Source of the DNA: Hassallia byssoidea VB512170
GTDB lineage: Bacteria > Cyanobacteriota > Cyanobacteriia > Cyanobacteriales > Nostocaceae
Reading direction: 5' to 3'
NCBI RefSeq assembly: GCF_000817785.2
Contig: NZ_JTCM02000054.1
Location: forward strand, 1-43,829
Length of the DNA: 43,829 nucleotides
The notes under the pieces were generated by a model that saw only the letters and a list, made by a program, of their open reading frames with translations, made no database searches and was not told the DNA's origin. Position numbers and translations under genes: made by a program. Shown here piece after piece: positions 24,738-28,940 of this stretch; the stretch's first letter is position 1, and each line of letters opens with the position of its first letter.

Positions 24738-24914
24738 ATGCATTATGAATGCATCAACTTGTGTTGTGAACCAACGGACTTGTTTTGTGAACCAACAGAC
24801 TTGTGTTGTGAACCAACAGACTTGTGTTGTGAACCAACAGACTTGTGTTGTGAACCAACAGACTTGTGTTGTGAACCAACAGACTTGTGTTGTGAACCAA
24901 CGGACTTGTGTTGA
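24738..24914 (+). CDS. Possible Cys-rich heptapeptide-repeat protein (speculative)
   Basis: A 58-residue frame begins MHYECINL and then repeats CCEPTDL seven times (first repeats CCEPTDL, FCEPTDL), ending with Cys. AAGGAAGG lies nine bases before the ATG, a good ribosome binding site. The 21-bp unit leaves all frames open, so this could be chance. Paired cysteines at fixed seven-residue spacing suggest a metal- or disulfide-linked peptide if it is expressed. Confidence 0.3.
   Translation: MHYECINLCCEPTDLFCEPTDLCCEPTDLCCEPTDLCCEPTDLCCEPTDLCCEPTDLC
24757..24914. repeat. 21-bp tandem repeat array, seven full copies and a partial
   Basis: The unit is ACTTGTGTTGTGAACCAACA plus G. Copies are nearly identical: copy 2 has one T change, and copies 1 and 7 have CGG in place of CAG. 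There are no spacers between copies. The array lies between the response regulator and a toxin-antitoxin pair. Confidence 0.95.
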
Positions 24915-25073
24915 AAAACATTGTATAAACGTTAAATTTCGCGTCTATACAAGGGTTGTAGACAACGCACAATTAATTTATACGCCTATATCTATTTAAA
25001 AACGCTACGATTTTAGGCAAAACTGTACTAAGTTGAGCGATATTACAAAGTTATCAGTTAGGGAGATGGTCTT

Positions 25074-27067: not shown

Positions 27068-27127
27068 CGTAGTAACGGCTAAAGCCGTTAAAATCCGTAC
27101 TCGTCGAGCGGTAAACCGCTCACTACG
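27068..27127. repeat. Dispersed repeat with two small hairpins
   Basis: CGTAGT and ACTACG bound two hairpins, AACGGCTAAAGCCGTT and GAGCGGTAAACCGCTC. It touches the 3' end of arsC, whose stop codon lies at 27123-27125 inside the right border. Confidence 0.65.
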
Positions 27128-27521
27128 AACCAAAAGACTCTATCAACTTTATTACCCGCTCTTTCACTTCATCACGAACGCGGCGAAAAGTTTCAATTGG
27201 TTGTCCTTCTGGATCGTCTAATTGCCAATCTTGAAAAACTTCTCTTAATACCCATGCTTGGGGTAAATTCACACCACAGCCACACAAAGAAATCACACCA
27301 TCAAAATCTTCCGGATGAAAATCGCTTAAAGGCTTAGAAGTTTGATTGCTAATATCAATGTTAATTTCTGACATGATATCAATCGTTTTCGGGTCTACAT
27401 GACTTGCTTCCAAACCCGAACTATTAACAGAAATTTTGCCTTCTCCTAAAGTGCGTGCAAATCCTTCTGCCATTTGCGATCGCCTAGAATTTTTCTTACA
27501 AACAAACATTACTCGTTTCAT
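27123..27521 (-). CDS. arsC: Arsenate reductase, glutathione/glutaredoxin-type LMW phosphatase family
   Basis: The 132-residue protein has the P-loop CKKNSRRSQMAEG with Cys8, and the redox pair Cys80 and Cys82 in ISLCGCGV, the three cysteines used by the cyanobacterial glutathione-dependent enzyme. Other cysteines present in the Synechocystis protein (about 13 and 35) are Arg and Ser here. The enzyme reduces arsenate to arsenite. It is the last gene of arsR - aquaporin - arsC, 165 bp after the aquaporin frame. Confidence 0.92.
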   Translation of the reverse strand: MKRVMFVCKKNSRRSQMAEGFARTLGEGKISVNSSGLEASHVDPKTIDIMSEINIDISNQTSKPLSDFHPEDFDGVISLCGCGVNLPQAWVLREVFQDWQLDDPEGQPIETFRRVRDEVKERVIKLIESFGS

Positions 27522-27591: not shown

Positions 27592-27671
27592 CCTTCTTTG
27601 CGTCTCTGCGACGGCAGTTGCTTCAAGCCGGGAGACCCGTCCAACGCACTGCCTCGTCTTTGCGTGAGATA
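27592..27671. repeat. CGCAGAG-type repeat split by a 41-bp palindromic element, copy 3
   Basis: CTTTGCGTCTCTGCG at the left and CGTCTTTGCGTGAG at the right are halves of the CGCAGAG-type repeat. Between them (27613-27653) lies an element with inverted ends GGCAGTTGC and GCACTGCC. It occupies the spacer between the aquaporin frame and arsC. Confidence 0.65.
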
Positions 27672-27686
27672 AAATTTCAATCTTAT

Positions 27687-28429
27687 TTATTTAACATCCC
27701 GAAACCCATCCGAAAGCACTGCATACACCACCACCGCTAACTGCGCTCCCAAAATCGGTGCAACCCAATAAACCCAGTGATATTGCCAAATTCCCCCCAC
27801 CAAAGCAGGACCAAGCGATCGCGCTGGATTCATACTTGCACCGATAATCGGTCCCATAAAAGCAGCTTCTACCCCCACCGTAAGAGCGATGCCTTCGGCA
27901 AGCCGCAGAGCGGCAACGCCAAACCCGCAAAATTGATATGTGCGCGGCGATCCAGTCCCGAACCCAAAATCACAAACATCAAAATGAACGTCAGAACCGT
28001 TTCCAGCACCAAAGATTGCCACCAATTGCCATTTAGTGGTATAGTTGCACCCATATTCGCAACTCTTCCCAAACTAGTTAGCAGCAAACTTGAAGCACAA
28101 ATTGCCCCCAATAACTGCGCCATAATATAAATTAATACCCGCCGTTTCGGGAAAAAACCGCTAGTCCAAAACGCCAAAGTCACTGCCGGATTGAAGTGTG
28201 CGCCGCTCAGATGTCCTATAGAATAAATCAAAGCAGCCACAACCCCACCAAAGACAAAGCTAATTCCCACATGGGTTACAGCACCACCGCTGATGTCATT
28301 CACCATCACCGCGCCAGTACCCGCAAAAACTAAAATAAAAGTACCAATTGCTTCTGCTAAAGCTTCTCGCCGAGATTGAGAAACTTCCCTGATGAATGAT
28401 TTCATTTTTGCTGATGTAATTATCTTCAC
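27687..28429 (-). pseudogene. MIP-family aquaglyceroporin, frameshifted by a 26-bp insert
   Basis: The first frame (28429 to about 27917) covers ALAEAIGTFILVFAGTGAVM, HLSGAHFNPAVT (first NPA, Asn80) and HINFAGLA. The second frame (from about 27890 to 27687) covers [23 protein letters not shown] (second NPA) and [18 protein letters not shown]. Removing 27891-27916 joins them into 238 residues, the normal length for this family, reading [15 protein letters not shown]. The position between arsR and arsC matches arsenite-channel MIPs known from arsenic operons such as that of Sinorhizobium. As it stands the protein would stop after the fifth helix. The start is GTG 28429, or ATG 28405 (MKSFIREV). 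Confidence 0.9.
27891..27916. mobile_element. 26-bp small dispersed repeat inserted in a HIP1 octamer
   Basis: The insert begins GCCTTCGGCAAGCC and ends GCAGAGCGGCAA. Its flanks are GCGAT on the left and CGCC on the right; joined they give GCGATCGCC, a perfect HIP1 octamer. The placement is unique, with no target duplication. The insert contains partly palindromic GC-rich arms. Small dispersed repeats of 20-30 bp are documented in Nostoc punctiforme; membership of this insert in a known class is inferred. Confidence 0.8.
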
Positions 28430-28504: not shown

Positions 28505-28822
28505 TTAACAACCAGAGTCGCAAGAACGCGCCGATAATATCTGATTCAAGCGGCTGTACTCTGCTAAATACTGTTGTAGAACAGCGAATTGAGGCGGATT
28601 GAGACTGTAATAAATCCAACGTCCTTGTTGGCGGGAGTTTACTAAACCCGCTTCTTTCAGGGTTTTCAGGTGAAAGGAAAGCTTAGATTGTGTCACATTC
28701 AACACTTCGCACAAATCGCATACACATAGCTCTTGTGTTTGCAATAGTTCCAAAACCCTCAACCGCAGCGGATCGGAGAGAGCGTGAAAACCGGCAACTA
28801 TATTTGTTTGGGAGGTTTGCAT
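28505..28822 (-). CDS. arsR: ArsR/SmtB-family metalloid-responsive repressor
   Basis: The 105-residue winged-helix protein has FHALSDPLRLRVLELLQTQE, the arsenite-sensing ELCVCDLCEVL cysteine motif in the recognition region, SKLSFHLKTLKEAGLV (DNA-recognition helix) and a Cys-containing tail (SCDSGC). It should release DNA when arsenite binds. The start MQTSQTNIV at ATG 28822 is chosen over 28870, as the longer N-terminus is not family-like. It leads the arsR - aquaporin - arsC group. Confidence 0.92.
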   Translation of the reverse strand: MQTSQTNIVAGFHALSDPLRLRVLELLQTQELCVCDLCEVLNVTQSKLSFHLKTLKEAGLVNSRQQGRWIYYSLNPPQFAVLQQYLAEYSRLNQILSARSCDSGC

Positions 28823-28868
28823 TGAATTTTGACAAGGGTACGTCTCTATTGTGAATCCCCAGAGATTC

Positions 28869-28940
28869 ATCTGCGGTTATTTTAAAGAAATCTCACGCCA
28901 AGGCGCAAAGGCGCAAAGAAGAGGTTTATCTGCGGTTATT
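28869..28940. repeat. CGCAGAG-like repeat bounded by 13-bp direct repeats, copy 4
   Basis: ATCTGCGGTTATT occurs at 28869-28881 and again at 28928-28940. Between them is CTCACGCCAAGGCGCAAAGG, a member of the dispersed family. It lies in the divergent spacer between arsR and the TPR-CHAT gene. Confidence 0.7.

Follow-up and report, generated by a model that had tools for sequence, protein, structure and literature searches.

A 26-nt repeat, very probably of the SDR5 kind, at a HIP1-like site in an aquaporin gene of Hassallia byssoidea VB512170

The interrupted aquaporin gene

The stretch analyzed here, referred to as the window, comprises positions 1 to 43,829 of contig NZ_JTCM02000054.1 of Hassallia byssoidea VB512170. 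Within it, a 26-nt element, GCCTTCGGCAAGCCGCAGAGCGGCAA, occupies 27891-27916 (+ strand) and interrupts an aquaporin gene. The element lies between the two halves of a HIP1 octamer as read in the sequence: GCGAT at 27886-27890 (+) on its left and CGC at 27917-27919 (+) on its right, which together give GCGATCGC. Read on the - strand, the element splits HIP1 between nucleotides 3 and 4, GCG^(26 nt)^ATCGC. The element itself consists of a first hairpin, GCC-TTC-GGC (27891-27899, +), and a second, GCCGC-AGA-GCGGC (27902-27914, +), as predicted by DNA folding.

The aquaporin gene is on the - strand. Its 5' part, with the first NPA motif, spans 27917-28429 (open reading frame (ORF) 27869-28429; Pfam MIP positions 6-166). 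Its 3' remnant, out of frame and carrying the second NPA motif, spans 27687-27890 (MIP positions 167-222, in ORF 27687-28025), such that the two pieces cover the MIP profile without overlap. The 5' frame reads through the insert to a stop at 27869, yielding 186 residues. Removing the 26 bp and joining the flanks restores a single 238-residue open frame that contains both NPA motifs, as the initial annotation had claimed. As 26 is not divisible by three, the insert shifts the frame and removes the second NPA half. Judged from the sequence, the gene is probably now a young pseudogene, having lost the function of a channel predicted to conduct water or arsenite. The dN was 0.076 in the 3' part and 0.026 in the 5' part (Fisher p 0.026 by site counts), and window-specific replacements numbered 6/66 and 5/163, respectively (p 0.08). 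The test is a weak one, but these values are suggestive of relaxed constraint on the 3' part after insertion and agree with loss of function.

The gene adjoins an ArsR-family regulator (28505-28870, -; Pfam HTH_5, E 5e-19). On its other side lies a gene of the low-molecular-weight phosphatase family (27123-27521, -; Pfam LMWPc, E 8e-21), a probable ArsC-type arsenate reductase to judge by its neighbors. Because these two genes flank the MIP gene, "arsenic cluster" is a fair reading of the locus. AqpS/GlpF-type aquaporins of ars clusters are reportedly known from work on Sinorhizobium meliloti. The window gene resembles these in its setting beside ArsR-type and LMWPc-type genes but differs in that it is disrupted, and arsenite transport is only predicted.

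Absence of the insert from relatives and the empty sites

We searched the 7.5-Mb genome for the 26-mer, as the initial annotation had proposed. A second exact copy was found on contig C90, in addition to one copy with three mismatches; the reversed 26-mer occurred 0 times. Thus, the inserted sequence is not a product of chance. The two exact copies have exactly 34 bases in common, GCGAT+26+CGC, and diverge beyond them.

The aquaporin DNA was then searched in 59 genomes, the window's own (G000) included. It matched in 21 of the 59, although in two of these, G005 and G032, only the element itself matched. The nearest relative with the gene is G002, which, like G001 and G004, is of the same genus as G000; it shares 88% DNA identity over the gene. 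In the alignment with G002, the sole gap in the gene starts exactly at 27891 and is 26 nt long, in keeping with the claim that the insertion left no target duplication. All 28 aligned loci other than the window's own lacked the insert, the net number of missing bases being 26 in 26/28 and 27 in 2/28; some of these loci are the same gene fetched twice, and the two 27-nt loci are apparently one gene. At the protein level, 96/96 homologous loci from many phyla aligned through the site; one, L041, has four extra residues near it. At eight further sites, at least one of the four same-genus genomes carries an element of the same class that at least one other lacks. These patterns indicate that the insertion arose in the G000 lineage after its split from G002, as part of an overall explanation that we consider very probable.

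Another reading is that the element was ancestral and was lost by slippage in all relatives. A loss-like site does occur elsewhere: at the G004:C236 site, G000 reads GCGAACGC where G001 and G004 are occupied. However, the initial annotation had named an ancestral in-frame 26 bp as something to seek in relatives, and neither the 28 DNA-aligned nor the 96 protein-aligned loci contain the aquaporin insert. The insert also disrupts the frame, and it is not credible that every relative lost it independently. Ancestry at this site is thus refuted by the outgroups, and we give it next to no weight. A sequencing or assembly error might also be invoked, as the genome is a draft of 219 contigs. Nevertheless, the insert, only 26 nt long, recurs in the genome and has exact ends at the target usual for its class. 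A random error would not produce such an insert, and this explanation is very improbable.

The loss-like site was considered further in the light of the quartet. The grouping of G000 with G001 and of G002 with G004 had 225 supporting sites, versus 82 and 70 for the alternatives. Under this quartet, the G004:C236 site requires either loss in G000 or two insertions, and the GCGAACGC in G000 is possibly an excision scar. The other empty site that reads GCGAACGC, that of G004 at C153:43147, requires neither. As a separate observation, the element shared by G001:C48 (L315) and G004:C236 (L308) has a second, 24-nt sequence inserted in its hairpin 2 in G001.

To compare the targets, we used the nine sites for which an alignable empty relative was obtained, a subset of all elements; the flank searches for relatives were chosen by hand from 46 pattern places. 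Contigs are those of G000 unless stated. At C144:8062, the empty site reads GCGATCGC in G001 and G004 and ACGATCGC in G002; at C144:12162, it reads GCGATCGC in G002 and G004 and CCGATCGC in G001. At C168:30723, G001, G002, and G004 all read GCGATCGC, with an unlike left flank in G001 and an unlike right flank in G002. At C90:677, G001 reads GCGATCGC with the right flank only. At C153:43147, G002 reads GCGATCGC with 12 more nucleotides missing, G004 is empty as described above, and G001 holds a variant element. G004 reads ACGATCAC at C153:49710, where G001 is occupied, and G001 reads GCGATCCC at C166:21149 with an unlike right flank. The remaining two are the G004:C236 site, where the G001 element carries the additional insert, and the window site. 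The window site and both C144 sites align on each flank, and none of them shows a target duplication. In total, the 16 site-by-genome comparisons yielded nine perfect octamers, six with 7 of 8 bases, and one with 6 of 8. At least one relative has a perfect octamer at 5/9 sites (C144 twice, C168, C90, and C153:43147).

Insertions and deletions of 15-40 nt in the same-genus alignments were also scored. Of 34 such rows, 7 restore at least 6 of the 8 bases of HIP1 when joined, and every one of them is an element. Twenty-six others score 5 or less, one of which, from G001, contains part of an element-like sequence. The remaining element row, C153:43147 versus G002, scored 3 due to its longer gap, although the relative reads the perfect octamer. 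Rows with an identical insert in one relative were merged, such that C144:12162 and C168 are not counted here. The long G000 stretches (C23, C55, and C201) lie on contigs with pattern matches; C90, many short loci, and G002 stretches L181-L193 (except L182) were chosen for an element there or on the contig. The counts therefore lean towards elements, as the stretches were picked where elements lay. HIP1 is frequent in this genome, with 34 copies in the window versus 0.28 expected and 428 in 402 kb, window included. Overall, HIP1 is clearly the target of these elements, and the suggestion in the initial annotation that HIP1 octamers serve as insertion targets holds, though it was already in print for SDR5.

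At the window site itself, the claim of a perfect HIP1 target fares less well. The joined flanks do complete the octamer, but G002 reads GCGATCGG, 7 of 8. The joined window encodes Ala-Ile-Ala, and the last Ala (GCT) is Gly in 96/96 homologous loci; the octamer is complete only through the Ala codon of G000. Because of the invariant Gly, the working ancestral gene most likely read GCGATCGG, and the octamer is probably not ancestral to that gene. It may have been completed by mutation shortly before insertion, by a later base change, or by the arriving CGC half. To call this site the cleanest trace of such an insertion was thus too strong: the two C144 sites are cleaner.

Layout, pairing, and folding of the element class

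The element belongs to a class with a common layout. In Nostocales-type genomes, this is GCGAT|GCC-N3-GGC-AA-stem-N3-stem'-AA|CGC; most listed elements have GCC-N3-GGC, a short spacer, a second hairpin (mostly with a three-base loop), and AA. Class lengths are about 21-27 nt, with 21, 24, and 25 nt seen besides the 26 nt of the window. The pattern GCGATGCC-N13..23-AACGC occurs at 22 places in G000, versus 2 for the reversed control, and matches in 40/59 genomes, own included. In many more-distant genomes, the count is not above the control.

To evaluate the flanks independently of the pattern, we scanned 1.07 Mb of G001 and G002 for double hairpins. The five matches were too few for a flank test, and a flank-free pattern was used instead. 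In five genomes of the genus, it found nine places in three genomes. All six places with GGCAACCCGNAGCGGG were flanked by GCGAT and CGC; the other three are one apparently orthologous, different sequence.

Pairing in the second stem was evaluated among the matches listed, which comprised 23 distinct 32-mers and 66 distinct 29-mers with chance rows kept. In the 24-nt class, all four second-stem positions pair in 14/23 distinct sequences, and the stems differ, examples being CCCG/CGGG, CCCC/GGGG, CGTC/GACG, CTGC/GCAG, and GGGC/GCCC, compared to GCCGC/GCGGC in the 26-nt window element. A total of 75/92 cells were paired, versus a shuffle mean of 40.5 with 0/5000 shuffles as high, the shuffles leaving the relatedness of the sequences in place; slid versions of the stem gave 24-42 paired cells. 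In the 21-nt class, 158/198 cells were paired, versus a shuffle mean of 125.8 (0/5000 as high). This class adds less, since 41/66 rows carry one of two stems. The compensatory substitutions suggest that shape rather than sequence is kept, and there is good evidence from these alignments that the pairing itself is what is conserved. Folded as single-stranded DNA, the window element is predicted to form a double hairpin closed by GCG/CGC (z -2.05).

Several other repeats were observed. The elements at G000:C115:47947 and G002:C21:66774 are apparently orthologous and both sites are occupied; their hairpin 2 is GCAC/GTCC in one and GGAC/GTTC in the other. On G000:C14 (L305 1337-1768), a 24-nt element lies in frame in a 143-residue ORF, to which it would add eight residues; members of 21 and 24 nt would keep the reading frame. 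At G000:C34:9735-9831 (L172 ~1436-1532), a composite chain of apparent small repeats has a degenerate version of the window element at its end. In the window, a 50-bp repeat at 27607-27656 (TGCGACGGCAGTTGC...CTGCCTCG) lies between the aquaporin and LMWPc genes; the 50-mer recurs exactly within 402 kb sampled from the genome and represents a separate repeat family. Finally, a 21-bp tandem array at ~24745-24915, which reads as repeated VVNQQTC, directly follows a response-regulator gene.

Mode of insertion and relation to known systems

Based on the absence of the insert from relatives, its exact ends, the flank specificity, the empty and occupied alleles, and the conserved pairing, all of which were observed, 27891-27916 is very probably a non-autonomous repeat of the SDR5 kind that inserted at a HIP1 or near-HIP1 site without duplication and broke the aquaporin gene. 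The assignment is by insertion point, length, and mobility. Mechanistically, an element of ~21-27 nt would fold as two adjacent tiny hairpins. We favor a mechanism in which a HIP1-directed cellular activity would recognize the folded element as a single strand and would cut and join at HIP1-like sites, GCG^ATCGC, without duplicating the target.

Several observations weigh against this explanation. The empty relative at the window site has 7 of 8 bases and all 96 homologous loci have Gly there, which tells against insertion into a perfect HIP1 for this copy. More generally, when intact HIP1 sites of G000 were compared with the same relatives, 92/115 were perfect, 7 had 7 of 8, and 16 were lower. 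Relative to this yardstick, 7-of-8 sequences are commoner at empty sites (6/16 versus 7/115; Fisher p 0.001) and perfect octamers rarer (9/16 versus 92/115; p 0.053), although the numbers are small and comparisons within one site are not independent. As to structure, the minimum-energy RNA fold of the window element is not the double hairpin. Among four other elements, the RNA minimum energy gave it in one, a second reaching it by centroid, and none of the RNA-folded elements was unusually stable. None of the five double hairpins in the scan of G001 and G002 had GCGAT upstream, and shuffled blocks gave 2.2 matches on average and 5 at most. Moreover, the comparison with Y1 transposase counts in the 59 genomes pointed to no mobilizing enzyme, and the assembly is a draft.

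The excess of 7-of-8 sites, together with the Gly codon and the G002 sequence at the window site, would fit a different mobile unit: a 34-nt GCGAT-element-CGC that pairs with HIP1-like sites and overwrites them, completing the octamer. Consistent with this, the right side of C153:49710 is ATCAC both in occupied G001 and in empty G004 but ATCGC in G000. On the other hand, relatives have the perfect octamer at both C144 sites, C168, C90, and C153:43147, and no more than an ordinary HIP1 target is needed there; HIP1 could also have arisen by mutation before insertion. We consider the 34-nt unit unlikely, though it deserves some weight. Similarly unlikely is the proposal that the elements are defined not by sequence but by their double-hairpin shape, of fixed layout, in split HIP1 halves and would spread by a structure-reading, HIP1-directed process that also takes 7-of-8 targets, the octamer being completed in the course of it. 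If true, this process would have been caught at the aquaporin site, with GCGATCGG before and GCGAT...CGC after, the element bringing its own target halves.

Hairpins, a short fixed target, and the lack of target duplication are like the chemistry of IS200/IS605 and RAYT transposases. A Y1 transposase of this kind, the mover proposed for REP/REPIN elements, would suit the element, and Y1 genes are present in 56/59 genomes, G000 included. However, counts of Y1 (PF01797) and of elements are uncorrelated, both across all 59 genomes (rho 0.14, p 0.29) and within the family (35 genomes; rho 0.19, p 0.28). Among the 59, elements are most numerous in G000, which has only three Y1 matches (best E 7e-16). 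The tags GTAG and CGTC and their complements are also absent from the 26 nt. By these counts, a Y1 mover is unsupported, and we consider it improbable.

Among known systems, SDR5 of Nostoc punctiforme and relatives is the closest. SDRs are reportedly about 21-27 nt long, a range that includes the 26 nt found here. The window element resembles SDR5 in its insertion between nucleotides 3 and 4 of HIP1, with the same ends in the six copies found without flanks, in its length, in its mobility, as evidenced by empty and occupied alleles at nine sites in related genomes, and in its HIP1-rich cyanobacterial host. It differs in that the 26-nt subtype disrupts a gene here and in its target, which probably was not a perfect octamer. 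A passage in Elhai 2015 (PMC4390886), citing Elhai et al. 2008, places the insertion point of SDR5 precisely between nucleotides 3 and 4 of HIP1, and insertion of small repeats at HIP1 is thus already in print. REP/REPIN elements with RAYT transposases are described, in the excerpts considered, as short, palindromic, dispersed, and non-autonomous (PMC3116915, PMC3733652). The window element shares these properties; unlike them, its class has a fixed HIP1-type target, and its counts showed no correlation with Y1 counts in the 59 genomes. The target site duplication of miniature inverted-repeat transposable elements and classical insertion sequences was not found at the window site or the two C144 sites. 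The halves of the HIP1 octamer flank the element; HIP1 is the target and not the mover. In titles and abstract openings, a comparison that leaves Elhai et al. 2008 outside, we found no account of the aquaporin insertion or of the stem covariation.

The case documents a HIP1-targeted repeat that disrupts a conserved gene. On how 21-27 nt elements move, the passage in PMC4390886 only suggests that cutting directed at HIP1 may be part of the explanation for SDR5. The empty and occupied pairs within one genus make the idea of HIP1 as a cutting site directly testable, and the compensation seen in hairpin 2 does the same for the idea of a mover that reads structure.
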